Made by a program: the position numbers and the translations under genes. From a virus, in IMG/VR virus record IMGVR_UViG_3300006874_000058, positions 1 to 33,473 of that record: DNA of 33,473 nt. One strand, given 5' to 3'. Numbering within the stretch: the stretch's first letter is position 1; every line of letters starts with the position of its first letter. Shown piece after piece: positions 16,182-33,461 of the stretch. The notes below the pieces were generated by a model. It made no database searches and had not been told where the DNA came from. It saw only the letters and a list, made by a program, of their open reading frames with translations.

Positions 16182-16183
16182 TT

Positions 16184-16190: not shown

Positions 16191-16213
16191 CTTTTATACG
16201 CTATGTTATGAAC

Positions 16214-16220: not shown

Positions 16221-16655
16221 ATGGCATACAAAGGAAAATACAAACCTTCTTATCCCAAGAAATACAAGGGTGATCCTACAAATATAGTTTATAGATCATT
16301 ATGGGAAAGAAAGTTTATGGTTTATTGTGATAAAAATGAAAGAATATTAGAATGGGGTAGTGAAGAACTTGCACTTCCTTATAGATCACCGTTAGATAAC
16401 AGAATTCATCGTTACTTTCCAGATTTTTATATTAAAGTTGTAGAAAATAATGGACAGATTCAAAAGTATTTGATTGAAATAAAACCCAAAAAACAAACTA
16501 TTGAACCTAAAGTTAAAAAAACAAAAACTAAAGGTTACATATATGAAGTTACTGAATGGGCAAAAAATCAAGCAAAATGGAAAGTTGCTCAAGAATTTTG
16601 TGAAGATCGTCGATGGAAATTTAAAATTATCACAGAAGACGAACTAGGTATCTAA
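16221..16655 (+). CDS. 4: gp4 head completion protein (nuclease-like fold)
   Basis: 144 residues with the T4 gp4 signature: NIVYRSLWERKFMVYCD, WGSEELALPYRSPLDNRIHR, YFPDFYIKV, KYLIEIKPKKQT, ending AQEFCEDRRWKFKIITEDEL. The family has a TnsA/PD-(D/E)XK-like fold. The residues in nuclease positions are visible as E29, D68 and E86-x-K88. In T4, gp4 is a virion protein needed to finish DNA-filled heads and join tails; whether it cleaves DNA is not settled. It is the first gene of the plus-strand unit, 31 bases after a CTAAATA motif, and is followed after 1 base by the next gene. Confidence 0.85.
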   Translation: MAYKGKYKPSYPKKYKGDPTNIVYRSLWERKFMVYCDKNERILEWGSEELALPYRSPLDNRIHRYFPDFYIKVVENNGQIQKYLIEIKPKKQTIEPKVKKTKTKGYIYEVTEWAKNQAKWKVAQEFCEDRRWKFKIITEDELGI

Positions 16656-16656
16656 A

Positions 16657-17061
16657 ATGCCAAGAAAAACACTAAGGCAAAGAGCAGCAGAAAATACTGA
16701 TACTGATTTTAATGTAAATCGTCTTAGATCAGTAACTGATAGTATCGTCGGTACTGAACATCCAGATGATTTAATGATTGAATTAATGAATGTTTTAAAT
16801 GAAAGTGGAAAAGTTCCTGATTCTGGAAAATACTACATTTTTGTTTACAATCCTAAAACACCAAACATAAAATATGATCAAAATCCATTTGTTGCCGTTT
16901 CAGATGTTTTTTCATGGGGGTTCAGAGGTATAAACTTTCATTGGGGAAAAGTTAGACAATATACTTGGGATGAGATAGTAGGGGAAATATATGAAGTCTA
17001 TCAATCTGAGATAAAAGATTTACAAACCATACCTTTTGGAAACTTTCGTCTAAATAGTTAA
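16657..17061 (+). CDS. Conserved cyanophage protein between gp4 and gp48
   Basis: 134 residues, function not recognised. The core is KYYIFVYNPKTPNIKYDQNP, FVAVSDVFSWGFRGINFHWG, KVRQYTWDEIVGEIYEVYQSE and a C terminus DLQTIPFGNFRLNS. The N terminus is basic (MPRKTLRQRAAEN). I recall similar sequences beside gp4 in other cyanophage myoviruses, without an assigned role. Its place between a head-completion gene and the tail-tube cap gene suggests a virion or assembly protein. It has no signal peptide, membrane segment or catalytic motif that I can see. Confidence 0.7.
   Translation: MPRKTLRQRAAENTDTDFNVNRLRSVTDSIVGTEHPDDLMIELMNVLNESGKVPDSGKYYIFVYNPKTPNIKYDQNPFVAVSDVFSWGFRGINFHWGKVRQYTWDEIVGEIYEVYQSEIKDLQTIPFGNFRLNS
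17050..17056 (+). promoter_or_regulatory. Possible late promoter CTAAATA before gp48
   Basis: Plus-strand CTAAATA spans the last codons of the preceding gene and ends 14 bases before the gp48 ATG. The spacing allows a very short leader. It could be chance, since the bases also encode Leu-Asn-Ser. Confidence 0.3.
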
Positions 17062-17070
17062 AAAAGGATA

Positions 17071-17967
17071 ATGGCAGAACAATCAATAAGGTATCCTTCT
17101 GATATGGCAATTGAGAAGGAAACTGATTATTTTAGTATTACACTTAAGGAATATGTAAATCCAGATGCATCTGGAATTGGTAACACAAATTTTACCGTTA
17201 CTGGATTGCTTGATTATTCTAAAAAAGAATCCATACAGATTGGTTCAGTCATATACTTACCAATGCCATCAAATTTGCAAGATTCCAATGCGGTATCTTG
17301 GGGTGAAAGTAAGATGAATAATCTTACTGCTGCAGGAGTCGCTGCAGGAGGGGCACTAATGGATATTGACCTATTTAATCTCGAAGGATCATTAGAAGAA
17401 GTTAAAGGGAAATTGGGAACGATTCGTGGTTCTTTGGATTTGGATAAGATAATAACATTAGGAAAAACTCAATTATCTGCAGAAGCAGTAAATGTTCTTG
17501 GTGGTAATGTTACCCTAGATCAAATTCTGGCACGTAGTTATGGTCAAATCGTAAATCAAAATAATAGATTATTGTTCAACGGTGTTACTTTAAGAGAGTT
17601 TAACTTTTCATTCAAGTTAACACCGAGAAATGAAGAGGACAGAGATAATATTAAAAAAATAATTAGAACACTTAAAGTGCATATGAGTGCTAAGAATAAT
17701 AGTAAAGAAAAGGACCCTGGTACATTTATTAAGACTCCTGGTTACTTTGATCTGCAATATAGAAAGGGGAATACTAAACACCCATTTCTACCATCATTCA
17801 AAGAATGTGCTCTAAAAAATATGGCAGTTAATTATACTGGTGAAAATGTTTATGCAACATATCATGACGGAACTCCTGTTTCTATGCAACTTGATTTAAG
17901 TTTTCAAGAAGTTGTACCAGTTTATGCAGAAGATTATACTGATAGTCTTTTAGGAGTAGGATACTGA
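17071..17967 (+). CDS. 48: gp48 baseplate tail-tube cap
   Basis: 298 residues. The N-terminal part is MAEQSIRYPSDMAIEKETDY followed by an Ala/Gly-rich helical stretch (TAAGVAAGGALMDIDLFN). The C-terminal half has the gp48 hallmark: LFNGVTLREFNFSFKLTPRN, EEDRDNIKKIIRTLKVHMSA, FIKTPGYFDLQYRKG, PFLPSFKECALKNMAVNYTG, ending SMQLDLSFQEVVPVYAEDY. gp48 caps the baseplate hub and starts tail-tube polymerisation together with gp54. An AAAAAGGATA ribosome site precedes the ATG. gp53 follows after 1 base, so the two are co-translated. Confidence 0.85.
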   Translation: MAEQSIRYPSDMAIEKETDYFSITLKEYVNPDASGIGNTNFTVTGLLDYSKKESIQIGSVIYLPMPSNLQDSNAVSWGESKMNNLTAAGVAAGGALMDIDLFNLEGSLEEVKGKLGTIRGSLDLDKIITLGKTQLSAEAVNVLGGNVTLDQILARSYGQIVNQNNRLLFNGVTLREFNFSFKLTPRNEEDRDNIKKIIRTLKVHMSAKNNSKEKDPGTFIKTPGYFDLQYRKGNTKHPFLPSFKECALKNMAVNYTGENVYATYHDGTPVSMQLDLSFQEVVPVYAEDYTDSLLGVGY

Positions 17968-17968
17968 T

Positions 17969-18670
17969 ATGGGTTATTTCAGAGAACTTCCAGAACTAGA
18001 TTACCAATCACCATTAGTTGATAGAACATCAACACTAGAGTTTGTTAGAGCTAAAAATCTCTTTAGAAGAGTAAAAATTCGTAGTGATTTTGAAAAAATT
18101 TATAATGCTTTTGAAAAATATACAATAGTAGAAGATACACGCCCCGATCAAGTTGCAAACGAATTGTATAAAGATTCCACTTTAGATTGGGTTGTTTTAA
18201 TATCTGCCAATATACTAAATGTTAGGAATGAATGGCCTTTATCAAATAGTAATCTTGAAGCATATGCATATGATTTATATGGTGACACTTTAAATGATGT
18301 CAAATATTATGAAACTATTGAAGTAAAAGATGCGAAAGGTAGAATTATTCTCCCTGCTGGTGAAATTGTAGATCAAAATCACAAAGTACCAAAACCAGTA
18401 ACAGATACATTACCAACACAATCATATGTTCAATATTATGATGCAGATACCAACTCATATAAGAGAGTTGAAAATATCACAATACCTGTAACTAATTTTG
18501 AATATGAGGTAATGAAAAATGATAAAAAAAGAGAAATTACAGTATTAAGATCTCGATATTTAGAGCAATTTTTAGATGAATTGAGACAGTTGATGAAATA
18601 CAAAGACTCATCACAATATGTGAATGATACTTTGATTAAAGCAGAAAATATTAGAATTACCTCTCCATAA
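17969..18670 (+). CDS. 53: gp53 baseplate wedge subunit
   Basis: 233 residues. It begins MGYFRELPELDYQSPLVDRT and contains FRRVKIRSDFEKIYNAFEKY, DTRPDQVANELYKDSTLDWV, VLISANILNVRNEWPLSNSN and a C-terminal EITVLRSRYLEQFLDELRQL. This is the gp53/LysM-like wedge family: D.RPD.VA...Y.D..LDW.....N......WPL. gp53 joins the wedges around the hub in baseplate assembly. A GGAG ribosome site lies inside the gp48 end. The gene ends at 18670 against a strong GC hairpin shared with the converging gp32 unit. Confidence 0.85.
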   Translation: MGYFRELPELDYQSPLVDRTSTLEFVRAKNLFRRVKIRSDFEKIYNAFEKYTIVEDTRPDQVANELYKDSTLDWVVLISANILNVRNEWPLSNSNLEAYAYDLYGDTLNDVKYYETIEVKDAKGRIILPAGEIVDQNHKVPKPVTDTLPTQSYVQYYDADTNSYKRVENITIPVTNFEYEVMKNDKKREITVLRSRYLEQFLDELRQLMKYKDSSQYVNDTLIKAENIRITSP

Positions 18671-18695
18671 AAAAGGGGGGGATTTAAATCCCCCC
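18669..18695 (-). terminator. Rho-independent terminator of the gp32 unit
   Basis: On the minus strand, six or seven G are followed by ATTTAAAT and the matching C-run, then six U (plus-strand A-run 18669-18674). The U tract is on the minus-strand side, so it ends transcripts from gp32 and the small ORF. It may also block read-through from gp53 on the other strand. The stem arms are 18675-18681 and 18690-18695. Confidence 0.85.
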
Positions 18696-18699
18696 GCTG

Positions 18700-18786
18700 T
18701 TACTTAAAGATAAGCATATAATAAGTTGCCACAACCAGGAGGGTCAGGCAGACCCTCTCATATGACCACTTGAACTTTTTTTTCAT
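18700..18786 (-). CDS. 28-residue putative membrane peptide coupled to gp32
   Basis: The ATG at 18784-18786 overlaps the gp32 stop as TGATG. The ORF encodes MKKKFKWSYER, then a hydrophobic stretch VCLTLLVVATYYMLIF and Lys, ending at TAA 18700-18702, just before the terminator stem. A basic N terminus and ~16 hydrophobic residues predict a single membrane segment with an N-in orientation. The coding sequence contains an internal inverted repeat (18739-18745 with 18751-18757). The tight fit between gp32 stop and terminator supports a real gene, but at this length chance is possible. Function unknown. Confidence 0.5.
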   Translation of the reverse strand: MKKKFKWSYERVCLTLLVVATYYMLIFK

Positions 18787-19736
18787 CAGTCCTCTGCCAG
18801 TTTAGCAAAGTAACTCAGTGTATCATCATCTTCGGTAGAAGAACTGGTGATATCGGAGCTGTTAAAGTCTCGCCCATCACTCAATGAATTCAATTCTTCT
18901 TTCATTGATTGTGGCATAGGATTGCTCTCACCACGATTTTGGCGGCGGAACTCTTCCTCTTCCTCAAGGGTCTCCTGATCTTGGAATTTAGGAGTTCCCT
19001 TATTTCCAAGAACATAATCCATACGCTTTTTCAGTTCATCATAGGTTTTGAACTGATCGGGAGCAACAAGTTCAGAAAGAGAATACTGCTTCTTCCAGAT
19101 TGCTTCCATAGCGTCATCATCATCTAGGAGGGCGCTGGAGCGGGCAAACTCCGAAGAGTCATAGTTACGGTAACCAGCAACGTTCTTCGCCTTCAGCTTG
19201 AAGTTAGCACCTTGCCAGAAGTCGAACGGATCGATTGCTTCCTCATCTTCAAACTCAGGTTGCATTGCAGTAGTGAGTTTATCAAAGATCTTCTTACCAA
19301 ACTTATACAAGAAAACTTTTCCCTCGTTTTCAGGATTAGCAGGATCTTTTACAACATAAATGTTGGCGATGTAAGTCAGTTTACGCTTCTGCTTACGTGC
19401 AAGTTCTTTTCCAGCATCAGTGCCATTGTTCCAAAGCATGGAATTATACTCAGACACAGGATCTTTCTGTCCCATCGTAGTCAGAGAGTTCTCAATGTAC
19501 CAACCACCAGGACCTTGGAAGGCATGGGAGTACAGTTTAACAAACGGCAGATCTTCGCCGTTAGGAGCAGGCAGGAAACGAATAACGGCATAACCGTTGC
19601 CGCTCTTATCACATTCCAGTTTCCAGAGACGCTCATCTCCTGGGTTAGCGGAATTATTCATTTTTTCGACTTCTTTAACCAGTTTAGCGGTCAAAGAGCC
19701 CAGTTTGGATTGCTTTTTAAGGTCTGCGAAAGACAT
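18786..19736 (-). CDS. 32: gp32 single-stranded DNA-binding protein
   Basis: 316 residues. The N-terminal basic region MSFADLKKQSKLGSLTAKL is the cooperativity (B) domain. The core has the OB-fold pattern GNGYAVIRFLPAPNGEDLPF, VKLYSHAFQGPGGWYIENSL, KRKLTYIANIYVVKDPANPE, and NFKLKAKNVAGYRNYDSSEF. The tail is strongly acidic and Ser-rich (SSSTEDDDTL), as in T4 gp32, where it contacts replication partners. Only one Cys is present (in LECDKSG), so the T4 zinc site is absent. gp32 coats ssDNA and organises gp59-gp41 loading, and gp59 lies just upstream. It has its own sigma-70-like promoter and a GAGG ribosome site. The coding region is visibly richer in G and C than the tail genes. Confidence 0.9.
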   Translation of the reverse strand: MSFADLKKQSKLGSLTAKLVKEVEKMNNSANPGDERLWKLECDKSGNGYAVIRFLPAPNGEDLPFVKLYSHAFQGPGGWYIENSLTTMGQKDPVSEYNSMLWNNGTDAGKELARKQKRKLTYIANIYVVKDPANPENEGKVFLYKFGKKIFDKLTTAMQPEFEDEEAIDPFDFWQGANFKLKAKNVAGYRNYDSSEFARSSALLDDDDAMEAIWKKQYSLSELVAPDQFKTYDELKKRMDYVLGNKGTPKFQDQETLEEEEEFRRQNRGESNPMPQSMKEELNSLSDGRDFNSSDITSSSTEDDDTLSYFAKLAED

Positions 19737-19781
19737 TTGGATTACCTCGGATTAATTGGATTCGGGGGGATTTACTTGGAT

Positions 19782-19810
19782 AGTATAACAAAAAATCGGT
19801 TAGGCGTCAA
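19782..19810 (-). promoter_or_regulatory. Sigma-70-like promoter of gp32
   Basis: Minus strand TTGACG (19810-19805), a 17-base spacer, then TATACT (19787-19782). The -35 box lies over the last codons and stop of the upstream DUF1825-like gene. A start near 19775 would give a ~40-base leader that begins with AAATCCCCCC. Confidence 0.75.
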
Positions 19811-20132
19811 TGTATTTTTTAAGTGCCTCGATGGTTGCATTCATACTATCAAAAAGCATAATCATATCAGTTTCTGGTGGAAAACCCATCAGAGCAACTG
19901 ATTTACGAAGATTCTCTTTCATTTCTACCGCTTTAGGGTCGTCTGAAAGAGATAACCTAGTATACATCACTTGCTGCTTTTCTAGCAAGTCTGTGAGAAT
20001 TTGGACATGTTCCAACTTTTCTTCACGGGACATTGCACTAAAAGACAATAAACTTCCATAAATTTTTTCTTGAAGATAATTTATCTCTTCAAGTTCTTTT
20101 TGAATAATTTCAGATTCAAAAAAGTCACTCAT
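19800..20132 (-). CDS. DUF1825-like cyanobacterial-type protein
   Basis: 110 residues: MSDFFESEIIQKELEEINYL, then LLSFSAMSREEKLEHVQILTD, LLEKQQVMYTRLSLSDDPKA, and a C-terminal MLFDSMNATIEALKKYIDA. The start FF.SEIVQ.E...I..LQ, the helical KL.....L.EKQ.....R..LSDDP pattern and the all-helical character resemble the DUF1825 family, which is shared by cyanobacteria and their phages. Function unknown. It overlaps gp59 by 8 bases, and its 3' end carries the gp32 promoter, so it is positioned to be co-expressed with the replication genes while gp32 can be expressed separately. Confidence 0.65.
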   Translation of the reverse strand: MSDFFESEIIQKELEEINYLQEKIYGSLLSFSAMSREEKLEHVQILTDLLEKQQVMYTRLSLSDDPKAVEMKENLRKSVALMGFPPETDMIMLFDSMNATIEALKKYIDA

Positions 20133-20721
20133 CTACCAGGTCTCTCAAAATTTTCTTGTATTTGAATACATCAATATTTATGAAGGGATTATATTTTTTT
20201 AATTTTAAACTTACGGTTTCCCATACAGGATCTTTTAATTTTTTATCAAAGTTTTTTGAAAAACCAAAAATTTTTTCAAAAATAACGAATGTTTCAAGAC
20301 TTATTTCTCCACCAAGAAATTTTTTTAGTAAAATTGGGTGACCCTTGGAACAATTGAAGAGATTCTCTAATTCGTTGTTCGATAGTAATTCGTTGCTTTG
20401 TTCTTTGAACAAGTAAGTTGAACTCTGACGACGTTTCATCCAATCGGCGTACACTCTTTCGCCAGAATTGATAATTTCTCCAATCCATAGGTTTTGTGGG
20501 TTATCGGCAGCAGCAAAATTAGATACTAAAAAATCCAAAATTTCTTGATCAGAATACTTACGAGAGGTTTTTTCAAACCAATACTTGTCTTTTCTTTTAT
20601 TGAAAGAAGTAATACTCGCACGGGTTTTTGCCCCGTATTTGAAAAAGTCGTATTTTGGATTTGTGAAGTGATTTTTTAGTGACAAATAATGTTGGTAAGT
20701 TTCAAAGGGAGTCACGATCAT
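20125..20721 (-). CDS. 59: gp59 helicase loader
   Basis: 198 residues. The N-terminal signature is MIVTPFETYQHYLSLKNHFT, NPKYDFFKYGAKTRASITSF, NKRKDKYWFEKTSRKYSDQE. This F..Y..YL.LKNHFT...YD.FKYG.K.R.S..SF.KRKDKYWFEK pattern is the gp59 hallmark. gp59 binds gp32-coated forks and loads the gp41 helicase. The protein is all-helical and basic, of the usual length. The ATG overlaps the gp33 stop (ATGA), giving order 33-59-DUF1825-32, close to the T4 order 33-59-32. Confidence 0.85.
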   Translation of the reverse strand: MIVTPFETYQHYLSLKNHFTNPKYDFFKYGAKTRASITSFNKRKDKYWFEKTSRKYSDQEILDFLVSNFAAADNPQNLWIGEIINSGERVYADWMKRRQSSTYLFKEQSNELLSNNELENLFNCSKGHPILLKKFLGGEISLETFVIFEKIFGFSKNFDKKLKDPVWETVSLKLKKYNPFINIDVFKYKKILRDLVDE

Positions 20722-20978
20722 AGTGGCAGTTTAGCTCTCGATGTTTTTTTCATAAAGTTGAGACGAATAGCATCCCACTTTAACTTTTCTTTTAGAGGTT
20801 TTGATACAAGTTTTGTAATTGAATCAACTTCAATATTGTTAGTCTCACAATAGAAACATATTGCATCAATATAATTCATCTTTTCTTTTGCAACAATTTT
20901 TTCAATTTCTATTGCAAATTTTGATGGTGTTAAAAACTTGTTTTCTAACACGTTTTTTAGATCTTTATTTTGTTCCAT
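20718..20978 (-). CDS. 33: gp33 late-transcription coactivator
   Basis: The start is set at ATG 20978 (86 residues, MEQNKDLKNVLENKFLTPSK), overlapping the nuclease gene by 14 bases. An earlier ATG at 21077 would add 33 residues and overlap it by over 100 bases. The body is FLTPSKFAIEIEKIVAKEKM, NYIDAICFYCETNNIEVDSI, TKLVSKPLKEKLKWDAIRLN, and ends MKKTSRAKLPL. I recognise FLTPS.F...IE..V......YIDAI..YCE.N.IE.....KL.....KEKL...A..LN.....AKLPL as cyanophage gp33. gp33 links RNA polymerase to the sliding clamp for late promoters, which fits the TATAAATA and CTAAATA motifs in this window. Confidence 0.75.
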   Translation of the reverse strand: MEQNKDLKNVLENKFLTPSKFAIEIEKIVAKEKMNYIDAICFYCETNNIEVDSITKLVSKPLKEKLKWDAIRLNFMKKTSRAKLPL

Positions 20979-21648
20979 AGAATTCCAATTTATCTCTAAC
21001 AAACTCTCCAATATATTCTGTGAGAAGTTTGATGTACTTTGATTTGTCTCGTTCTTCATAGACGACGCATTCTCCATTTTCGCAAGCCATAATAATTACA
21101 AGTTTTTTGACTGAAATACCAGTCAGTTCGTACAGCATACAACCATATGCCATGCACTGTACAAAATAGTGATCAATCCACTCCCGTGGTTTCGGTTTAG
21201 CAGATGTCTTAAAGTCGATTATTGCTAATTCGCCGTTGTATTCTGCAATACAATCAACAGTTCCCGCAATCCCTAATTGTTTACTATATAGCGAACCTTC
21301 AAGGGTGTATATATTATTTATATTTTTAAGAGTTTGCTTAGAGATTTTAAATAAAAAGTCAGAAATAGGTTGTACTTCTGGCAATTCTTCATTCTTTAGA
21401 AAATACTCTACAAGAGTATGCATATCTGTACCACGACTTGTGGCACGTTTTGTGATGCGTTCTGCTTTTTCTTCCCCTACCCGTTTTCTCCACTTAGCAA
21501 AAAATTCTCTATTTCTGTGACTGGTAACAGATGTAATGGAGACCAGTCGGAGGAGTTCTTCTTCATCAGGAACTTTATAAAATCTTACTCCATCAATTGT
21601 TTCTCTTTCAAGAGATGGAAGATCAATATCAACATGGTTAAAAATCAT
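20965..21648 (-). CDS. PD-(D/E)XK exonuclease, RecB/Cas4-like
   Basis: 227 residues. Motifs in order: H77 in RGTDMHTLVEYF, G.xVD at GIAGTVDCIAEYNG (D132), LAIIDFKTSAKPK (D145-x-K147) and YFVQCMAYGCMLYE (Q164, Y168). This H...G.vD...DxK...QxxxY series is the active site of RecB-family PD-(D/E)XK nucleases. A role in phage recombination or DNA end processing is inferred. It belongs to the gp33-gp59-gp32 replication unit: the stop overlaps gp33 and the start overlaps the upstream oxygenase-like gene through ATGA. No iron-sulphur cysteine cluster like that of Cas4 is clear. Confidence 0.75.
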   Translation of the reverse strand: MIFNHVDIDLPSLERETIDGVRFYKVPDEEELLRLVSITSVTSHRNREFFAKWRKRVGEEKAERITKRATSRGTDMHTLVEYFLKNEELPEVQPISDFLFKISKQTLKNINNIYTLEGSLYSKQLGIAGTVDCIAEYNGELAIIDFKTSAKPKPREWIDHYFVQCMAYGCMLYELTGISVKKLVIIMACENGECVVYEERDKSKYIKLLTEYIGEFVRDKLEFYGTK

Positions 21649-22346
21649 TTTTCACTCATAAAAAATACTTGTGTTAATCTTGGATCAAAGTTATTAGAGA
21701 ATAAATTACTAGCACTATGAAAGTAATTTGAATTATATAAGATTAATCTATTATAAACATTATCAATTTCATGTGTTTTTTCAAATAATTCATCAACTTT
21801 ATCTTTTATTTTAATAATGTCTATAGCAGGATTTGGTTTGGGAATATAAGAAGAGTATAGCATATTTTTGTATGCATTGAAATAGTAGTCATATTCTCTT
21901 CTAAGATCTGCAAACTTTTTATTTGTTGATGGATCTGAAATGTTATTTGTATAATTTTTTAATTTATAAAAACTAGTTCCAGAACTTTTAATGGATTTTT
22001 TATTTAAATAAACAACACCAGAAAGAGTTTTTTTACCATCTATAAAATAGTTTTTATAAAGATCGGTATGTACAAATCCACTATTTAATGATGAATTTTT
22101 AAAAGGAGAAAAAATATATGTTTTATGAAATGAAGTTTCCAAATCATAATTGAATACATCAACACTAGTTTTATTTTTTAATAAAACTGAAAAAGATGTG
22201 AAAATATCAGAGTTATTATCTAATATTGAAGTTCTTTTTCCTGGCCAATTAGAACCTACCTCAGAAGAAAATTTTTGTGATAAGGCATAATTTACAACAC
22301 TATCTGGATCTGAATAAAAATTATCTATAACAATAACATCATTCAT
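21645..22346 (-). CDS. 2OG-Fe(II) oxygenase-like protein
   Basis: 233 residues. It starts MNDVIVIDNFYSDPDSVVNYAL and has NWPGKRTS near residue 33, FVHTDLYKNYF at ~91, LSGVVYLNKK at ~108, and NRLILYNSNYFHSASNLF ... DPRLTQVFF at the end. This looks like the DUF6445 / prolyl-hydroxylase-like group: the His93-x-Asp95 pair and the distal His210 are plausible iron ligands, and Arg223 could bind 2-oxoglutarate. Hydroxylation of an unknown substrate is inferred. It is joined by ATGA overlaps to phoH upstream and the nuclease downstream. AT-rich, Lys/Asn/Ser-rich composition differs from phoH and thyX, which may indicate later acquisition. Confidence 0.6.
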   Translation of the reverse strand: MNDVIVIDNFYSDPDSVVNYALSQKFSSEVGSNWPGKRTSILDNNSDIFTSFSVLLKNKTSVDVFNYDLETSFHKTYIFSPFKNSSLNSGFVHTDLYKNYFIDGKKTLSGVVYLNKKSIKSSGTSFYKLKNYTNNISDPSTNKKFADLRREYDYYFNAYKNMLYSSYIPKPNPAIDIIKIKDKVDELFEKTHEIDNVYNRLILYNSNYFHSASNLFSNNFDPRLTQVFFMSEK

Positions 22347-23101
22347 AAATTAGTTTCTTGTTTTGCAAGAAGATATTCTTTAACCAAACCAGATCTTACA
22401 ATATCATTAACATCAAACTCAACAAGATCGACAGAAGGCATAGTTTGCAGTATTTTTATAAAATCAAAGATACCATTCTTATCATTAGTCTTTGTTAAAT
22501 CAGACTGAGTGGCATCACCACAAAACATAATTTTAGAGTTTTCACCGATTCGTGTAATTATACTATCAAGTTCGTGGAAAGTTAGATTTTGAAATTCATC
22601 AACAATAATAATTGCATTATCGAGAGTAGTTCCACGAAGAAAAGAAGTGCTCCAAAACTTAATCGTTTCTTGTGACTTCAAATTACCGTAAAGCATTTCA
22701 AAATCTGCATCACTGGGCATTTGAAACATATACTTCACCATATTTTTATATGGAATTTGATAAATGTCTGCTTTATCTTCATGAGTACCAGGTAAAAAAC
22801 CAATTTCCCTGGTTGCAACTAACGATCTAACCAAATAAATTTTTTCAAAAGGACTATTTTCATCTAATACATCTTTAAGTGCATTATAAAGAGTAATAAA
22901 CGTTTTACCAGTTCCAGCACAACCATAGGCAACTAGATGTTTATCTTCTTTATATGAATCAAAATAAGTTTTTTGATTATCAGTAATAGGTTCAATATCA
23001 ATAAGATATTCTAACCCTAATGGTTTTCTACGCTTCATCTGCTTTACAGTGAGTCCAACCCCAATAGGTTGCTCTGCAGATCCTCTTTTTCTTCTTGCCA
23101 T
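22343..23101 (-). CDS. phoH: PhoH-like ATPase
   Basis: 252 residues with Walker A GCAGTGKT at 60-67, Walker B IIIVDEFQN (D168, E169), and the PhoH blocks IYLVRSLVATREIGFLPG, SFLRGTTLDNAIIIVDE, FCGDATQSDL and VEFDVNDIVRSGLVKEYL. This is the single-domain cyanophage PhoH, a P-loop ATPase/helicase-like protein whose job in infection is still unclear. The name comes from the phosphate-starvation regulon of bacteria. The N terminus is basic (MARRKRG). It is probably transcribed with the 81-residue gene from a TATAAATA promoter at the thyX stop. Confidence 0.9.
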   Translation of the reverse strand: MARRKRGSAEQPIGVGLTVKQMKRRKPLGLEYLIDIEPITDNQKTYFDSYKEDKHLVAYGCAGTGKTFITLYNALKDVLDENSPFEKIYLVRSLVATREIGFLPGTHEDKADIYQIPYKNMVKYMFQMPSDADFEMLYGNLKSQETIKFWSTSFLRGTTLDNAIIIVDEFQNLTFHELDSIITRIGENSKIMFCGDATQSDLTKTNDKNGIFDFIKILQTMPSVDLVEFDVNDIVRSGLVKEYLLAKQETNL

Positions 23102-23110
23102 ACTAGAATA

Positions 23111-23356
23111 CTAAATCTTTTTTACGTTTGCGCCAGGCATAGATGCTGCTCTTCCAAGGACATCATTCCATCCTGGATTTTTAGCAACTAATTTACTCTG
23201 CCATTCACCAACTTCACCAAATCCTGGTGCGTTGTATGGAGTATAGTATCTTTCCCATTCTGGGTTGTCTTCTCTCCACTGATCCCATTCGTGAACACTC
23301 ATCTTCACTTCTTTGGTTTCACCAGTTTCTTTATGTTTTACAGGATAAGTTGCCAT
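23111..23356 (-). CDS. Conserved cyanophage hypothetical protein (81 aa)
   Basis: 81 residues, function not recognised: MATYPVKHKETGETKEVKMS, VHEWDQWREDNPEWERYYTP, FGEVGEWQSKLVAKNPGWND, VLGRAASMPGANVKKI. It is rich in Trp (6) and charged residues, with no membrane segment. I recall similar short proteins near phoH in cyanophages. Its start region resembles small phage regulatory proteins with a K-x-T-x-E-K-x-V beta hairpin, but that is weak. The ATG lies 24 bases after the late-promoter motif at 23380-23387. Confidence 0.7.
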   Translation of the reverse strand: MATYPVKHKETGETKEVKMSVHEWDQWREDNPEWERYYTPYNAPGFGEVGEWQSKLVAKNPGWNDVLGRAASMPGANVKKI

Positions 23357-23379
23357 TCTTTATAATTTCAATACGAAAA

Positions 23380-23387
23380 TATTTATA
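23380..23387 (-). promoter_or_regulatory. Late promoter TATAAATA overlapping the thyX stop
   Basis: Minus-strand TATAAATA spans the thyX Val codon end and TAA stop and lies 23 bases upstream of the 81-residue gene's ATG, the usual distance for a T4-type late promoter. It would allow late expression of the 81-residue protein and phoH independently of thyX. Confidence 0.55.
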
Positions 23388-24021
23388 CCCATTCAAGTGC
23401 TTCAGCAACTGTTGGAAACTGTTCAATAAAAATCTTCTTACATCCATTTGCTACATCCATGTGCTCTTTCTGAGTGCCGTTTGCAGACCTCAGAGTTATA
23501 TAATGGATCCATGACCTGCATGATCCTGACATGTAGATTTTTGTTGGTACGCAGAGTGGAAGCACATTTCTTGCACATTCCTTTGCGACACCACGTTCAA
23601 GCATTTGCTTGTACAAAGCCATGGAAGAATCAAAGAGAGTTTGCATCTGAAGTTGCAGAGTCTGAACATCAAAAGGATCCAAATCATCAATAGAATTTTG
23701 GCGATTCTTCGTGTCTTGCCTACGAAGTTCTGGTAGTGGAATCTTATCAAAACCTAACAGAGATGAATCAGCGTACCGCTGGGAAAACTCTTGATATGTG
23801 AACGAACGGTGACGCAAAATTTGAGCTGCGATTGCCCTGGTAGTTTCAATCTCCAGAGTCATGAAACTTTGCTCAAATACACTCCAGTGATTATGTTTAA
23901 TACAATATTTCAAAAGTCCTGCATATTTTTCGTTTTCTTGATTTGCAGGATTAGAAACTCTGGCAACATATGCCATAGTTTCTTCTGCATCTGGAGTTAC
24001 ACTAATCAGTTTTACGGTCAT
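23383..24021 (-). CDS. thyX: Flavin-dependent thymidylate synthase ThyX
   Basis: 212 residues. The ThyX signature RHRx7S is at 70-80 (RHRSFTYQEFS), followed by QRYAD. Other family blocks are HNHWSVFEQSFMTLEIET, VAKECARNVLPLCVPTKIYM and SGSCRSWIHYITLRS. ThyX makes dTMP from dUMP using FAD, NADPH and methylene-tetrahydrofolate, supplying nucleotides for phage replication. The start overlaps the upstream coiled-coil gene by ATGA. The length matches the family. The terminal codon and stop form part of a late promoter. Confidence 0.9.
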   Translation of the reverse strand: MTVKLISVTPDAEETMAYVARVSNPANQENEKYAGLLKYCIKHNHWSVFEQSFMTLEIETTRAIAAQILRHRSFTYQEFSQRYADSSLLGFDKIPLPELRRQDTKNRQNSIDDLDPFDVQTLQLQMQTLFDSSMALYKQMLERGVAKECARNVLPLCVPTKIYMSGSCRSWIHYITLRSANGTQKEHMDVANGCKKIFIEQFPTVAEALEWV

Positions 24022-27205: not shown

Positions 27206-28027
27206 CTATACTCCATCCTCATGCCAACATTCATTGTAACCATTTTTTTGATCATCATATGGGTATGACATAAGATCTTTTTTAGGCCATTTTAAATCAA
27301 TACCTTTTTTAGGGAAAGATTTAAATAACCTTTTTGATAGATTAGTGCTAATCTCATGAGATTCATCCCATTGTTGACAATTATCATATAGATACTTATC
27401 TTGTTGGATTAGCATTATCTTGACACGATCATCAAAATTAGAACAATAATGTGCTCCAATATAAGTTTCAGATCTAGTAAAATATGGATAATATTTCCAC
27501 AGATCATTCTTTGATATTTTTACCAGATCTGTAATGTTATATGTTTTTAATGGTATATCAAATAATTTATATAAATCTTCAGTTTTTCCCCAGAAAAGAT
27601 GATCTCTGGGGTGGAATAGAAGATGTGGATATAATCCTGGTACAAATATACGATCTTTCTCTCTGTTCTCTATAAAAAATTCATACATATTGAGCATACT
27701 CTTATGATCATATAACTGATCGGTACGCATTTTTATAGAATACTCTGTTGTAGATTTTTTTATACCACTGAAAGAGGAGAAAATTTGAAGATTGACATTA
27801 TCATCTCCAGTATTTGTAGGTTTTTTGTTCGGTACTAATACAATTCTATCTACATTTTTATCAATAATATCTCTGAGGGATGATAAATCATCATCATCCC
27901 AACAGGATAAAATTATATTATTAACGAAAGGAATATTTAAATAACTTTCTATTACATCATTGGTAAATTCATCATATTTTCCTTGCAGAATAATATCATG
28001 TTTTTCATACTCATTATTATTCCGCAT
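27206..28027 (-). CDS. WavE-like glycosyltransferase
   Basis: 273 residues. Blocks: HDIILQGKYDEFTNDVIESY, FVNNIILSCWDDDDLSSLRD, NVNLQIFSSFSGIKKSTTEY, SIKMRTDQLYDHKSML, FHPRDHLFWGKTEDLYKLFD and CQQWDESHEIS. The IVLQG start, the NNIILS.W, the Q..S..G......Y.IKMRTDQ and the DHLFFG pattern are those of the WavE LPS-synthesis family, in which the region around K-M-R-T-D-Q is thought to bind the nucleotide sugar. Transfer of a sugar to a surface glycan is inferred. It follows the 1014-residue glycosyltransferase by 2 bases and is the last enzyme of this operon before glutaredoxin. Confidence 0.7.
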   Translation of the reverse strand: MRNNNEYEKHDIILQGKYDEFTNDVIESYLNIPFVNNIILSCWDDDDLSSLRDIIDKNVDRIVLVPNKKPTNTGDDNVNLQIFSSFSGIKKSTTEYSIKMRTDQLYDHKSMLNMYEFFIENREKDRIFVPGLYPHLLFHPRDHLFWGKTEDLYKLFDIPLKTYNITDLVKISKNDLWKYYPYFTRSETYIGAHYCSNFDDRVKIMLIQQDKYLYDNCQQWDESHEISTNLSKRLFKSFPKKGIDLKWPKKDLMSYPYDDQKNGYNECWHEDGV

Positions 28028-28029
28028 GA

Positions 28030-31000
28030 CTACTTTTTTTCGCGTTCAATATCATAGTGCTTCAAATTATCAACAATAAGATTATGATAATACGGAGTAA
28101 GATTATAGTTATCAATCAAATCTAGAAAAATTTCTTTAGATTCTTCAACTTTACCCCAGTACCAACCAGAAGATGCTTTTTCAAAAAGTAAACCAAGTCT
28201 TCCAGGATATTCAACATCATGTGTTGTTTTTGGAGAATCAAAATCAGATAAAGTCAAACCCTGGCAGGCAAATTGATAACAGTGACTCCACTGCGATCTT
28301 TTCTCATGGAATCTTGCAAGCAAAAAGTATGCTTCTGGTCTAGTTGGTTTTATACATAACGCTTGCTGCAGTAATGATTCTGCTGTACCATCTCTTGTTC
28401 CTTGTTTATCATAACAATGATGGCACTTAATTATTGCTTCATATTGCATATCTTCACTTTCAAACCTTTCAGCGGCTCTCAAGAAATATGAAAGTGCTGG
28501 TGCAGTGTGCCCTTCTTTTTCATACCATATTCCAAGGTTGTAATTTTTTTGTGCATCCTCACAATCTAAAGAATATTCATACAATAACTGCTCTAACTCA
28601 GTCCTTTCCCTTCCAATACTTTTTTTTTCTTCTACAATTTCAGTATCTTTTTCGGAAGTTACAGAAAGCAGTGCGCCAAGTGAAACATTGTTATTTTTCC
28701 ACCAATCTGTGACAAATTTATATGTTTCAACATGATGTGCTTTGTTTTTATCAGATAATCCCTCTTTCCCATAAAAAGTAGAAGGATGATTTTGATCTTC
28801 AACAAAAAGATTTATAGAATAAACTTTACCAAGTCCATAGAAAATTACATTTTCTGGCATTGGATAAAAATTGGAGTTTGGAATATTTAAAGTATAAGTA
28901 TTATTATCAAAATAATGATCAATTATTTTTTTAGCATACCCTCTGGTTAAAATATATGCGGTTACAGACCAATCATACATTGATCTATCACGCAATCTCA
29001 CTTCTTCCTGACCATCTCGTACACAGCAGAGTTGAACACATTCAGCATCTTCTGGAAGACTTTGAATAAATTCTGTCCAAGAAAAATTCCAATCATTAAC
29101 AGTCTCAAGGCTTAGATCATCTTCACAAAAGAATGCATACTCTTCATCAGTTTCATCATACCACTTTTTAATCATCTTGATATGAGATACTACACATCCC
29201 TTTGTACCATCATCAAGTATATGTAACTGCTCTCCTTCTAATTTATCATCAGATTCAGAAAATCTCTTGGAAATTACACCAACAGTTTTTTCTACACCAC
29301 AACTAAAAAATTGTTTATTAAGTTTATTTCTCCGTTCAACACTTTCCTCTAAACTTATATAGTAAACGCTAGGAAAGTTTACAAATTTTATTTTGTTTGG
29401 TATCTCTTTACTTTGATTCAATTTAAATGCCATTTCTTTCCATTTATTAAGGACAATATTGTGTGAATTATGATGGTGAACATTTACATTATCATCTTCA
29501 CCGTCAATTTGATATGATGCTTTAAAGGAAATATCTTCTAAAAAGAGAGGAATTACATAAACTTCATCACTCAATCCAAAGATAATAGTTTCAATAACTG
29601 GTACAATAGCCCAGTCTGGTCTGTATTCTACATCGTGACATTTGGAATCAAGATGGAATACATCATCATAATAATATGTATCAATCAATTTTTGTGCATA
29701 TTTTCTACTAATTAAGTATGCACATCCAGACCAATCACTCCATTCTCTAGTTTTAAATTTAATATCTAAACCATACTCATATTCTCTAAGTAAACAAAGT
29801 TGAACACATTCCCATTGTGGAGGTAAAGAGTTAAAAAACTCTTCCCATGTAAAGTCCCAATATTTTACAGATTCTAAGGAGATATCATCTTCACAGAAAA
29901 AAGCATATTCCTCTTCAGTGTCATTCAACCATTCTTTAATGGCCTTTAAATGAGAAGTTACTGGACCTCTACTACCAATACTTAATCGATGTAAGTACCC
30001 ACTTTGAATTTGATGCTCACTATCATCATATTTTTTAAATATATGAGGAGTTATATGATCTTCTAGTATACCATACTCTGAAAATATTTTATATAAATTT
30101 TCTCTCCTCTCTTCAGAATGTTCAACACTAATAAAATTAACTGGTGGAAGATTTTTTAATTTATTTTTATCCAGTTGATGTTGGTTATTATCAATAGATG
30201 CTGTGTAATAACGACCACCTTCAGAAGAAACTATCCATTTAGTTTCACACTTAACGTATGCTCCAGATACTTCATCCACTTTAGCACGGTTAATCTGATT
30301 GTGTTTCATTGCTAAAACGTAATCAGTTTGCCATTCTAAATCATCACCACTATAACAACCAGAAAGATTTGCTCTTATAATATCTCTTATTTCTCTTTGC
30401 TCATAGGTTGAACGAAAGTTTTCAAATCGTTTATTGTCTGGATGAGGCATGTGAATTAGATGATAATCAAAATCTAATTTCTTGTGCTCTAATCCATAAA
30501 TCTCTAATCTTTTATAAATCTCATCATCTTCAAATGAGTAAAAATCTGAAAACGATTCGTTATATCCACCAATATTAATAAAATGTTCCTTTGAAACAAA
30601 AAGAAGACCTGTCAAATACCTATAGTATGAACTATAAGAATCGTAATAATCTTGCATTTGCTCAACACTCATCTTCATTTTATCAAATTTATGAAGACCA
30701 CTCTCTTCATCATAAAATTCTGGACTTTTTATAGAAGATTTTCCACTAACAAATGAATTTTCATCAATCTTATATTTGTTGAAAAAGGAATAATATGGAC
30801 TCATTATATAATCACAATCAACCTTAAGTATGTAATCTCCAGTCGCTTGTTGAGCAGCCAAGTTTAATGGTTGTGGTTGATTAAAATACTCAACATCATC
30901 TACACGAATGATTTTAATCCTTTCGTCCAGTTGAGTTAGATTTTTTAATGGTTTGACAGATTTCCAATCAACAATAATAATTTCTGATATTTCTGAGTAA

Positions 31001-31074
31001 TTTAACCAAGAATTTAATGAAACTCTTAATGCTTCATTTCTATTTTTACAAGCACATATTAATGAAATCTTCAT
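28030..31074 (-). CDS. Multidomain glycosyltransferase: GT2 + GT25 + GT25 + TPR
   Basis: 1014 residues. Residues 1-240 are a GT-A family 2 domain: MKISLICACKNRNEALRVSL, EIIIVDW, YILKVDCDYI (DxD at 86-88), and a galactosyltransferase-like INIGGYNESFSDFYSFEDDE (EDDE at 182-185). Residues ~310-550 are a GT25-like domain: NFISVEHSEERRENLYKIF, GPVTSHLKAIKEWL, EEEYAFFCEDDISLESV (EDD 395-397). Residues ~566-790 repeat that domain: YYISLEESVERRNKLNKQFF, CVVSHIKMIKKWYDETDEEY, AFFCEDDLSLETV (EDD 651-653). Residues ~830-1014 are TPR-like helices (AQKNYNLGIWYEKEGHTAPA, LSYFLRAAERF, and later units). The GT25 copies are clearly related to each other. It probably builds a short oligosaccharide on a single chain. 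ATGA coupling to the GDPD-like gene. Confidence 0.8.
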   Translation of the reverse strand: MKISLICACKNRNEALRVSLNSWLNYSEISEIIIVDWKSVKPLKNLTQLDERIKIIRVDDVEYFNQPQPLNLAAQQATGDYILKVDCDYIMSPYYSFFNKYKIDENSFVSGKSSIKSPEFYDEESGLHKFDKMKMSVEQMQDYYDSYSSYYRYLTGLLFVSKEHFINIGGYNESFSDFYSFEDDEIYKRLEIYGLEHKKLDFDYHLIHMPHPDNKRFENFRSTYEQREIRDIIRANLSGCYSGDDLEWQTDYVLAMKHNQINRAKVDEVSGAYVKCETKWIVSSEGGRYYTASIDNNQHQLDKNKLKNLPPVNFISVEHSEERRENLYKIFSEYGILEDHITPHIFKKYDDSEHQIQSGYLHRLSIGSRGPVTSHLKAIKEWLNDTEEEYAFFCEDDISLESVKYWDFTWEEFFNSLPPQWECVQLCLLREYEYGLDIKFKTREWSDWSGCAYLISRKYAQKLIDTYYYDDVFHLDSKCHDVEYRPDWAIVPVIETIIFGLSDEVYVIPLFLEDISFKASYQIDGEDDNVNVHHHNSHNIVLNKWKEMAFKLNQSKEIPNKIKFVNFPSVYYISLEESVERRNKLNKQFFSCGVEKTVGVISKRFSESDDKLEGEQLHILDDGTKGCVVSHIKMIKKWYDETDEEYAFFCEDDLSLETVNDWNFSWTEFIQSLPEDAECVQLCCVRDGQEEVRLRDRSMYDWSVTAYILTRGYAKKIIDHYFDNNTYTLNIPNSNFYPMPENVIFYGLGKVYSINLFVEDQNHPSTFYGKEGLSDKNKAHHVETYKFVTDWWKNNNVSLGALLSVTSEKDTEIVEEKKSIGRERTELEQLLYEYSLDCEDAQKNYNLGIWYEKEGHTAPALSYFLRAAERFESEDMQYEAIIKCHHCYDKQGTRDGTAESLLQQALCIKPTRPEAYFLLARFHEKRSQWSHCYQFACQGLTLSDFDSPKTTHDVEYPGRLGLLFEKASSGWYWGKVEESKEIFLDLIDNYNLTPYYHNLIVDNLKHYDIEREKK

Positions 31075-31551: not shown

Positions 31552-32790
31552 TCAAAACTCTAAAACCCATTCTGGAAGAGATCCACCACCAGTTTCATAT
31601 CCCCACTTATCAATAGCAGCACGGAATTCCTCTCCAGGATTCTTATCAATCGCTTGTCGCATTGCTAAAGCACCAGAGAGAGTGCCACCAGGGTGTCCAT
31701 GAACTGCACCACCACAGTTTGCTAGGAAATCAGTTCCAAACTTCTCAGCAGTAGTGTTGACGATACCTGGATGCATACCACAACTGAGTGCTGGTAGGAC
31801 ATTTCTATGATGCAAAGTATCCATCACGGTATGCAGTTCTGCTTCATCATCACTCAAATATCCACCCCACATACCAGCATGGATAGTATCAACACCACAG
31901 AGACCTGCAAGGTCACAAAGAACACTCCAATCGATACCAAAGTTATGACGCTTATCAGTCAGAATCTTATCTCCACTCTTCTGATAATGAACAAACATTG
32001 GAAGATCCATCTTCCTCACGGAATTGTAAACACCAAGTCCACTCCAGAAATTAATGTGAATACCATTACCACCATTATTTGCAACAAACTTTGCACGATC
32101 AAGGATAGTATGGTGATCACCATTAATGCAGAAACAGTAAATTACTCCCCTACCACATTCATTAACAAGATTTGAAATAAGTTCTACACGATCTTCAAGA
32201 CGGCAAAAAGATGGATTGGAAAGAATCTCATCTTCTTTAATAAAATCTACTCCACCATCGAGAAGTTCTTTAACCATCTCCGAAAGAGTTTGTGGAGAGA
32301 TTCCAGTTTTTGGTTTAACAATAGCACCAGAAAGTGGTTTATCGTAACGATTAACAAACCTACGGATACCATCAATACCATACTTAGGTCCCAAAAACTG
32401 TGCTTCAACATCAGCAGGAAAATCAAGTTTTCTGAGTCTACATGTTTTGAAGACATCAATATCAAGTTGTCCACCCATTAACTGACACATCAGATGAGAA
32501 ATACCATCACCTTCCCAATCAGTATTCACTTTAGGGAAACCAATCTTTACTTCACCAGAAGTCATGTTAGTTAATTTTTCTTCATCGTCGTAAATGACGC
32601 ATGATGCAAGTTCAAAAAGATCATCACTTTCCCAACGATTACGAACTTTTGGATTACCCACACTTTGTCCAATTGCAAGTGCCCAAGCAGCATCTCGCAA
32701 GTTGCCTATATTTTCATATGTTTCGATGTAAAATGTAGCAACAACACAACGATTTTTTTCTTGTTCTGTTAATTCTCTAAAAAATTTCAT
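31552..32790 (-). CDS. RuBisCO-like protein (RLP, form IV-type)
   Basis: 412 residues, close to RuBisCO large-subunit length. Residues ~15-130 form the N-terminal domain (VVATFYIETYEN, AAWALAIGQSVGN). The barrel (~150-400) has GAIVKPKTGISPQTLSEMVK (K159 and K161 = K175 and K177 of plant RuBisCO), GGVDFIKEDEIL (K185 = carbamate K201; D187, E188 = D203, E204), DTIHAGMWGGYLSDD (H304 = H327), PALSCGMHPG (S336 = S379) and CGGAVHGHPGGTLSG (GG near 403/404). Loop-6 K334 is Tyr311 and R295 is Tyr269, so RuBisCO carboxylation is unlikely; an enolase or isomerase type reaction on a phosphosugar-like substrate is inferred. ATGA overlap with the methyltransferase. Substrate unknown. Confidence 0.85.
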   Translation of the reverse strand: MKFFRELTEQEKNRCVVATFYIETYENIGNLRDAAWALAIGQSVGNPKVRNRWESDDLFELASCVIYDDEEKLTNMTSGEVKIGFPKVNTDWEGDGISHLMCQLMGGQLDIDVFKTCRLRKLDFPADVEAQFLGPKYGIDGIRRFVNRYDKPLSGAIVKPKTGISPQTLSEMVKELLDGGVDFIKEDEILSNPSFCRLEDRVELISNLVNECGRGVIYCFCINGDHHTILDRAKFVANNGGNGIHINFWSGLGVYNSVRKMDLPMFVHYQKSGDKILTDKRHNFGIDWSVLCDLAGLCGVDTIHAGMWGGYLSDDEAELHTVMDTLHHRNVLPALSCGMHPGIVNTTAEKFGTDFLANCGGAVHGHPGGTLSGALAMRQAIDKNPGEEFRAAIDKWGYETGGGSLPEWVLEF

Positions 32791-33461
32791 ACTTTAACCT
32801 CATTTTTTATAAAAACCAATATCTCATCACCAGCAAATCCATATGTTTTATTAGAACCATATGTCTTTACTTGAGTAATATTACAATAATACTTATCATT
32901 ATTATATTGTTCAAGAAAATTTGCATATGATTGGATTGCGTAGTCAACGTCTTCAACTATAAGAATTCCTCCAGGATTTAAATACTTATGAACATTTGAA
33001 ATTACTTTTACCTGATCCCAAAACTCATGGCTGGCATCGTCTATAATAATATCAAATTTAGTACCTGTTTTTTCAAATGCTTCAAGAATTGATTGTTCAT
33101 CCCTAACATTTATATAATCATAATGAACGTTATGAAGATTATCATTTTTAGCAAGTTGGACAAAATCATATTGATAGCGAGTTTCTGTACAGTGTTCCAA
33201 TTTACAATCCCAACCATATAGAGTAGCCTGCGAAAAATACTCTCTCCACATCTTCATAGATGCATTTTTATATATACCAATCTCACCAAACACAATGTCT
33301 TTATGTCTAAGATTAGAAAATAAAAAATTATAAAAAGGAGTATAGGAATGACGCCCCATTTCATATACTAATGAAGATTTGTCTGTTTTATATTTTTCAC
33401 CAATATGACATAAATCAGTTGGAGATGTGAAACTATTGTAAAGTACTTGATTGAATTTCAT
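32787..33461 (-). CDS. Class I SAM-dependent methyltransferase
   Basis: 224 residues. An N-terminal motif LCHIGEKYKTDKSSLVYEMG, RHSYTPFYNFLF precedes the SAM-binding loop VFGEIGIYKNASMKMWREYF (E60-x-G62), an acidic strand end LYGWDCK, IIIDDASHEFWDQ and LNPGGILIVEDVD. The GEIG.......W...F........G.D and IDD.SH.........L.PGG...IED pattern is that of CmcI/Methyltransf_24-type enzymes that often act on sugars or small polar molecules. It is preceded by TGAGG and begins 12 bases from the right edge of the window, so the operon extends further upstream. The stop is overlapped by the RLP start. Confidence 0.7.
   Translation of the reverse strand: MKFNQVLYNSFTSPTDLCHIGEKYKTDKSSLVYEMGRHSYTPFYNFLFSNLRHKDIVFGEIGIYKNASMKMWREYFSQATLYGWDCKLEHCTETRYQYDFVQLAKNDNLHNVHYDYINVRDEQSILEAFEKTGTKFDIIIDDASHEFWDQVKVISNVHKYLNPGGILIVEDVDYAIQSYANFLEQYNNDKYYCNITQVKTYGSNKTYGFAGDEILVFIKNEVKV

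Follow-up and report, generated by a model that had tools for sequence, protein, structure and literature searches.

The window analysed here, the whole 33,473-base stretch of the IMG/VR virus record IMGVR_UViG_3300006874_000058, carries close to its right edge an uninterrupted frame of 412 amino acids (aa; 31552-32790, minus strand) encoding a RuBisCO-like protein (RLP). The gene lies in a tight run of genes on one strand: its start overlaps the stop of a methyltransferase-like gene by 4 bases, its stop codon is 1 base away from the gene of a short GDPD-fold protein, and the end of the latter overlaps by 4 bases the start of a gene for a 1014-aa glycosyltransferase, next to which a WavE-type lipopolysaccharide synthesis gene was found (Table 1). 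We regard the protein as an intact, non-canonical member of a large and mostly viral RLP clade, with a gene set pointing to glycan synthesis, and the function proposed for it below is drawn from sequence comparison.

As an earlier annotation of the same DNA (hereafter the original prediction) had recognised, the window belongs to a T4-like cyanophage, with T4-like core genes related to those of cyanophages. Between positions 15000 and 20000, the matched parts show about 73% DNA identity to Synechococcus phage S-SKS1 and Prochlorococcus phage P-SSM2 (57% and 43% covered, respectively). The original prediction had also named a joining error with bacterial DNA as a danger. A contig join or cellular contaminant was ruled out because 11.9 kb of the window recur elsewhere: positions 21555-33473 are found at 99.95-99.99% identity over 11,919 bases in four other IMG/VR contigs (66-111 kb), which have different dataset numbers and possibly come from related samples.

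Fold, active site and clade of the RLP

The protein matches PF00016 (E 1.1e-42) with 146.8 bits, the cut-off being 30.1, and belongs to the RuBisCO large-chain superfamily. Six NCBIfam models of RuBisCOs and RLPs were matched as well, all far under their cut-offs (rubisco_III, for example, at 201 of 497 bits). When an AlphaFold2 model was built with 37 family rows as input (pLDDT 93.2) and compared with the PDB by Foldseek, the top matches were form III RuBisCOs. Structural alignment with VIA-align gave a Z score of 43.4 to form III RuBisCO 2cwx (2.2 Å over 380 residues) and a tied score of 42.5 to the 2,3-diketo-5-methylthiopentyl-1-phosphate (DK-MTP) enolase 2zvi (2.7 Å over 367 residues). 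The aligned region, residues 1-394, takes in nearly the whole length, so that the full-length protein expected in the original prediction is indeed present. None of the PHROG families matched it, and no full-length match turned up in BFVD, where the best hit (E 5.6e-6, TM 0.38) is weak and leaves relatives possible. The form III enzymes of Pyrococcus horikoshii (2cwx) and Thermococcus kodakarensis (3a12), its best matches in both sequence and fold, share with it the carbamate lysine, the Mg ligands, K175 and K177. However, they are only 26-28% identical to it, are longer (about 440 aa against 412), fall in a separate clade and have the residues E60, T65, N123 and K334 that it lacks.

We aligned 102 rows of the RLP family, 79 of them viral and 23 from genomes, to sequences of forms I-III and to other RLPs, using spinach numbering. 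The window residues K159 and K161 correspond to K175 and K177, K185, D187 and E188 to K201, D203 and E204, H304 to H327, S336 to S379, and G360 and G361 to G403 and G404, which bears out the metal and carbamate residues of the original prediction. K175, K177, K201, D203 and E204 are invariant (102/102); the carbamylatable lysine with its two acidic companions that characterises form I, II and III RuBisCO is thus in place as K185, D187 and E188, and carbamylation of K185 is predicted. Loop 6 is another matter. As had been proposed, its lysine K334 is replaced by Tyr311; there is no lysine at loop 6, and tyrosine was found in 101/101 family rows reaching this position, against lysine in all 14 form I-III rows aligned. 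Over a broader collection of 120 distinct sequences, which includes near-copies, the tyrosine occurs in the 119 that reach loop 6, one sequence ending before it. E60, T65 and N123 are replaced by Gly, Asn and Gly in all 102 rows (window G41, N46 and G107). With its RuBisCO fold and substitutions at essential catalytic residues, the protein is a form IV-type RLP.

One assignment of the original prediction did not hold: Tyr269, taken there for the R295 position, aligns with position 293, two residues off, and R295 corresponds to Lys271 and H294 to Gln270. The R295 position is Lys in 96 of the 102 family rows, Ser in 5 and Arg in 1, while H294 is Gln in every one. Among the 101 rows reaching H327, 91 have His and 10 have Gln, and all 5 Ser295 rows fall among the latter. 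These rows form a viral subclade (L067-L070, L077, L078, L080-L082 and L188) with the H327 to Gln change, five of them also with R295 to Ser.

Because Lys334 (Tyr), Glu60 (Gly), Thr65 (Asn) and Asn123 (Gly) are missing, the protein should not fix CO2, a prediction that rests on established knowledge of RuBisCO. The loss of several RuBisCO catalytic residues might also suggest a non-catalytic or passenger protein. There is only a very slight chance of this, since the catalytic lysines and metal ligands are invariant in the 102 rows, the gene set described below is kept across phyla, and the gene is under purifying selection. The median dN/dS is 0.058 (122 of 136 pairs among 17 sequences), a simple Nei-Gojobori estimate from which 14 saturated pairs were dropped and in which many pairs are near saturation (median dS 1.29).

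Two trees, both quick ones without bootstrap and without GOS, IV-DeepYkr or IV-AMC references, place the RLP in a distinct form-IV clade apart from forms I-III, in line with the form-IV-type protein of a phage-dominated clade that had been predicted. In the first, 38 family rows were split by a branch of about 1.0 (SH-aLRT 99) from 33 others comprising forms I, II and III, OiaX, RLPs linked to four-carbon kinases, MtnW and divergent homologues; left out of it were the short reference L110, family sequences shorter than 330 aa (including L103) and near-copies at 82% identity. In the second, where Chlorobium-like and further RLPs were added, the family was cut to 17 rows and the four divergent rows L261-L264 were omitted, the clade received an SH-aLRT of 100. 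The sister group of the clade differs between the two trees; in neither does the clade lie within that of forms I-III. Nor does it group with IV-Photo, as four Chlorobium-type rows (437-453 aa, from the phylum of G009, their Chlorobium identity being taken from protein length and phylum) form another clade.

Other divergent homologues were seen on the way. In the phylum of G009, which is Bacteroidota by the label of L101, 33 of 395 genomes gave PF00016 matches of only 65-95 bits in frames of about 370-430 aa (L499-L510). The 12 regions fetched for these showed no K(E/D/N)DE carbamate/metal motif and no profile match to the nucleotidyltransferase, cupin or GDPD, and the six sequences placed in the tree form a clade of their own. 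L261, L262 and L263, from DPANN genomes of the phylum of L090, are very divergent RuBisCO homologues, two of them on long branches.

A substrate of the DK-MTP type had been suggested in the original prediction, and the fold is indeed as close to MtnW, the DK-MTP enolase (2oem, 2zvi), as to form III. A role in methionine salvage, as DK-MTP enolase or MTRu-1-P isomerase, nevertheless appears improbable. MtnW also lacks the loop-6 lysine and keeps the carbamate lysine and metal ligands, and in the first tree two MtnW-type rows adjoined the clade at 91. But that grouping was lost in the second tree, the two MtnW models were matched far below their cut-offs (NF007095, 163 of 409 bits; TIGR03332, 122 of 514 bits), and the neighbours examined included no recognisable gene of methionine salvage. 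Moreover, positions 123, 295 and 327 are Gly, Lys and His in the RLP and Lys, Pro and Leu in both MtnW-type rows; the lysine at 123, which we take to be the base of MtnW, is thus replaced by G107.

A decarboxylase or transcarboxylase of sugar-acid phosphates, like OiaX in apionate breakdown, has a similarly small chance of being the right description. OiaX rows share Gly123 with the family, and OiaX and related sugar-acid RLPs carry out phosphosugar enolate chemistry of the kind proposed below for the family. On the other hand, the OiaX model NF042437 was matched at only 156 of its 700 bits, the clades are separate in both trees, and the four OiaX rows (two annotated so, two assigned by similarity) differ from the family at three positions, having Lys334, Arg295 and Ala177 in place of Tyr, Lys and Lys. 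OiaX works in a catabolic context, whereas no sugar-acid kinase or catabolic operon was recognised beside the RLP.

That the gene encodes a true CO2-fixing RuBisCO, as an auxiliary metabolic gene (AMG) for carbon fixation, has next to no probability. Its carbamate and metal residues are present, and viral 'rbcL' genes from soil, landfill, the Great Salt Lake and estuaries have been presented as carbon-fixation AMGs (PMC12615777, PMC12607003, PMC8506154, PMC13390420, PMC13288924), but the four substitutions at E60, T65, N123 and K334 occur in all family rows reaching them, the clade stands apart in both trees and no Calvin-cycle partner was recognised in the gene set. In the accessible parts of PMC12607003, PMC12615777 and PMC8506154, such genes are read as carbon fixation, and no analysis of residues or gene set was seen there. 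The first of these reports a landfill-phage protein that groups with 'RbcL-like' proteins and marks rbcL as seen also among 100,000 sampled IMG/VR viruses; judging from that part of the text, these genes probably overlap the present RLP family. The soil viral gene with rbcS that is reported to carboxylate ribulose 1,5-bisphosphate (PMC12615777) is, on the same partial basis, probably another protein. Our own form I-III pattern scan of IMG/VR matched 26 stretches and no RLP relative; being pattern-limited and without an independent positive control, it is no proof that viral RuBisCO is absent. Since in such pattern-limited scans the form I-III alignment yielded 0 relatives and the family alignment 354, viral 'rbcL' matches should be checked at loop 6, where this family has the Tyr of GMxGGY, before they are counted as carbon fixation.

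Conserved gene set and distribution

The genes of the RLP clade stand in a conserved set with that of a sugar nucleotidyltransferase-like protein, often joined by those of a 108-aa cupin and of a short GDPD-fold protein, both in phages and in genomes that bear the labels of several cellular phyla. This set, which points to surface-sugar synthesis, had been passed over in the original prediction. Neighbours were named by Pfam where a match is reported and otherwise by eye. Within ten genes of the RLP in 101 loci, the nucleotidyltransferase cluster was present in 93, the GDPD-like protein in 73 and the cupin in 69. A profile search within six genes of the RLP in 80 viral loci, the best of the 354 IMG/VR stretches, recovered them in 78, 60 and 66, respectively, the two loci without a nucleotidyltransferase being L082 and L025, which begins at a contig edge. 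For the 21 loci from genome collections, the stretches fetched contained the nucleotidyltransferase in 19, the GDPD-like gene in 14 and the cupin in 5; the two loci lacking the first are L088, on a contig of 3.1 kb, and L103, which is cut at its end and comes from a contig of 3.7 kb. In Elusimicrobia and Azospirillum, the order is GDPD-RLP-cupin-nucleotidyltransferase (frames read from stop to stop). In the window itself, the RLP and GDPD-fold genes lie among glycosyltransferases, and in the near-identical locus L043 the cupin is found at, and the nucleotidyltransferase beyond, the equivalent of the window's right edge.

Table 1. Genes and features of the window, with the evidence on which each was named.
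Feature	Position	Strand	Evidence
RuBisCO-like protein (RLP), 412 aa, clade member	31552..32790	-	PF00016 1.1e-42; RuBisCO fold over nearly whole length; tree
Short GDPD-fold protein, 159 aa	31071..31550	-	phrog_34507; profile match 4e-4 to GDPD; fold; H6, E35, D37, H49
Methyltransferase-like protein	32787..33461	-	PF13847 6.4e-8; PF13578 4.5e-6
1014-aa glycosyltransferase, GT2 / GT7C / GT25 domains	28030..31074	-	PF00535, PF02709, PF01755
WavE-type lipopolysaccharide synthesis protein	27206..28027	-	PF07507 3.9e-14
T4-like backbone: tail tube, gp4, DNA end protector, gp48, gp53, gp32, gp59, late coactivator, PhoH, ThyX	15474..24021		Identifies the phage

Among Pfam families, the nucleotidyltransferase hits PF00483; its profile matches 4evw and enzymes of the heptose pathway. 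The GDPD-fold neighbour matched no Pfam family at E <= 0.001, nor at 0.01, and given this missing match we call it GDPD-fold and do not file it as a GDPD. The label draws on a weak profile hit (4e-4), on the fold and on four conserved residues. Its model (pLDDT 91.3) has GDPDs as best folds, with a Z score of 11.7 against at most 7.5 for unrelated barrels, and H6, E35, D37 and H49, which presumably are the His, Glu, Asp and His catalytic in GDPDs, were conserved in 13/13 rows.

Of the 69 loci with a cupin, 59 have it directly in front of the RLP, an arrangement that recalls the MTA-isoprenoid shunt of Rhodospirillum rubrum, in which an RLP isomerase is followed by a cupin (PMC6302742, in the part available). 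By analogy, the RLP would carry out a 1,3-isomerisation to a 1-substituted xylulose 5-phosphate, the cupin would remove the substituent and an IspD-like nucleotidyl transfer would follow; a few nucleotidyltransferase rows do give weak IspD matches below the cut-off. We consider such a tandem unlikely, as the cupin was not found in 14 of the 80 viral and 16 of the 21 genome-collection loci, and position 123 is Gly in the family as opposed to Lys in the two MtnW rows. Furthermore, the R. rubrum cupin, which we assume to have a structure in the PDB, is absent from the 16 PDB matches of our cupin profile up to E 10.

Some cellular loci have further peculiarities. In three Legionella loci a LicD-type gene (by Pfam match for one) adjoins the pair divergently. 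In SAR11 L089, L091, L092, L094, L095 and L096 the RLP is located between two nucleotidyltransferase homologues, the upstream one of which, in L089, L094 and L095, misses part of the G-x-G-x-R signature and may not be catalytic.

The clade is mostly viral. The alignment search of IMG/VR returned 354 stretches encoding an RLP relative, and a search with the single protein returned 239, on contigs of up to 518 kb. When IMG/VR was scanned with other RLPs, 34 loci were obtained. With the family profile, 33 of them reach 540-681 bits, and these show the tyrosine in loop 6; the 34th (L463) is a match of 77 residues. No match to the RLP was found by tblastn among the isolate phages of INPHARED (E up to 1e-5), a collection in which the nucleotidyltransferase does have relatives, in 19 records, as have the GDPD-like protein in 16 and the cupin in 3. 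Because a psbA-type gene was present in 5 of 30 related contigs searched (a search that covered contigs other than the window), part of the family is carried by cyanophages. The T4 baseplate marker phrog_232 was detected in 10 of 21 related contigs, in one at E 6e-4 only; contigs without it may be fragments or other phages, and we claim T4-like status for only some of the carriers.

In cells, the RLP is a rare accessory gene. The genome-collection scan gave 21 loci labelled SAR11, Legionella, Azospirillum, Elusimicrobia, Verrucomicrobia, DPANN archaea and others. When 297 genomes of the SAR11 family were searched (E up to 1e-60), 3 had the gene; two of these are seeds, and the third, which has the same coordinates as L086, is probably that locus again. 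Among 22 Legionella genomes 4 had it, and 3 of the 4 are seeds. Phage DNA caught in single-cell or metagenome bins may account for some of the genome loci. L083 and L101 look by eye like such cases; the Legionella loci and SAR11 L085, L094 and L095, whose contigs measure 43 kb to 1 Mb, do not.

Partners of the nucleotidyltransferase

The loci gathered from the other members of the set differ in their RLP content. Among the best 80 of 476 cupin-seeded loci, the RLP was present in 71 and the nucleotidyltransferase in 77, while among the best 80 of at least 596 GDPD-seeded loci the RLP was present in only 6 and the nucleotidyltransferase in 76. We then counted distinct nucleotidyltransferases near a cupin or GDPD-like gene, after dropping 7 of 179 that were cut at the locus start. 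Those with an RLP within four genes are short (at most 300 aa in 95 of 100), and those without one are mostly long (more than 300 aa in 63 of 72); the Fisher value for this contrast, 8e-31, and that obtained after 75% dereplication (7e-7, with 40 of 45 RLP-linked ones short and 16 of 22 without an RLP long) both overstate it, since the rows are related and the counts are not independent events.

The additional length corresponds in many cases to a further domain. Of the 63 long proteins, 43 were scanned, and 31 of these contain HAD_2, 7 a PNKP-type HAD and 3 RpiB. In six loci the slot between cupin and GDPD is filled by a gene of 230-235 aa, and both of the two that were scanned match the phosphomannomutase PMM (PF03332). 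Isolate cyanophages vary in a similar way, with a HAD fusion in S-CAM9 and B23, an RpiB fusion in SynMITS9220M01, and a class II aldolase between the nucleotidyltransferase and the GDPD-like gene in S-SM2. In a tree of the nucleotidyltransferase domain, at least 5 changes of label are forced by starred branches.

Fused nucleotidyltransferases of this kind, joined to HAD_2, PNKP-type HAD or RpiB (L347, L353, L363, L365, S-CAM9, B23 and SynMITS9220M01), mostly lie near a short GDPD-fold protein or a cupin and make up a phage glycan module of their own.

Proposed reaction of the RLP

We propose, with a probability of roughly 0.55, that the RLP is a carbamate- and Mg-dependent phosphosugar enolase/isomerase that feeds nucleotide-sugar synthesis for surface glycans and does not serve carbon fixation, because its carbamate and Mg residues are intact, its nucleotidyltransferase is near-constant, and the alternative partners are isomerases, mutases or phosphatases. 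Carbamylated Lys185 and Mg2+ would enolise a ketose phosphate, the phosphate of which would be bound at the C5-phosphate position of RuBisCO, where Lys271, His304 and Ser336 are kept or conservatively changed, and an isomer or epimer would be returned. The nucleotidyltransferase would activate this product, and glycosyl- and methyltransferases would build the activated sugar into a glycan of the host envelope or the virion. Positions 295, 327 and 379, which bind the C5 phosphate in RuBisCO, are kept or conservatively changed in most family rows, and the C1-phosphate site, to which T65 and K334 belong, is partly lost; we infer from this that the substrate is a monophosphate.

The order of the steps could also be the reverse, with the RLP acting downstream of the nucleotidyltransferase, on a compound already activated with a nucleotide or on an intermediate attached to a lipid or glycan. 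The make-up of the gene set shows who the partners are and says nothing of the order of the pathway, and the cupin and GDPD-fold protein could well be later steps. We consider this order doubtful, as the RLP reactions described so far in the accessible part of the literature, namely enolisation, isomerisation, decarboxylation and transcarboxylation, use small phosphosugars, such as phosphoketoses, or sugar-acid phosphates (PMC6302742), and as the alternative partners PMM, RpiB and HAD are enzymes of free phosphosugars or phosphatases.

A phosphosugar enolase/isomerase upstream of the nucleotidyltransferase would suit a wider proposal, to which we give about even odds: within the RuBisCO superfamily, a large branch found mostly in viruses would perform a new phosphosugar reaction in making the nucleotide sugars of surface glycans. 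The RuBisCO fold would then be, next to HAD, PMM and RpiB, one of the partners that can replace each other beside a single nucleotidyltransferase family.

Several points weigh against the proposed reaction, beginning with the relatedness of the rows in the length contrast. The two length classes were drawn for the most part from separate seed searches, one class from those with the RLP and the cupin and the other from that with the GDPD-like protein, each search being limited to its best 80 matches. There are counter-examples on both sides, as 5 of the 100 RLP-linked nucleotidyltransferases, in four loci, are long and 9 of the 72 without an RLP are short, some of the latter being the PMM loci. 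One of the forced label changes, which joins L087_6 with L390_3, was flagged by the tree tool as a possible long-branch artefact. Methyltransferase- and glycosyltransferase-like genes, too, occupy the place between nucleotidyltransferase and GDPD in other phages. The HAD domains are phosphatases or mutases and do not enolise, so the exchange does not show that the same reaction is carried out. Finally, the phosphate-site argument rests on homology, and the viral subclade with Gln327, in five rows together with Ser295, may mark a shift of substrate, so that substrates may differ within the family.

If the wider proposal is true, the superfamily, so far associated with CO2 fixation and with catabolic and salvage reactions, would gain a biosynthetic role in surface sugars, viruses would be the main carriers of this branch, and such viral 'rbcL' genes would be glycan genes and not carbon-fixation genes. 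Our literature search, conducted mostly without subscription papers and preprints, found none joining RuBisCO-like proteins, a nucleotidyltransferase and polysaccharide, and at most one on a phage RLP was listed. In the parts of the sources available, GOS is described as having yielded 65 marine RuBisCO homologues outside the known forms (PMC1821046), and the name 'IV-GOS' is used in PMC10173188; if these unassigned homologues belong to the present clade, the proposed reaction would be a candidate function for them.

Elsewhere in the window, the T4 gp5-like baseplate hub/lysozyme is apparently encoded in two frames (4783-8009, minus strand), 7503-8009 matching positions 10-139 of phrog_1922 and 4783-7503 matching its positions 210-651.

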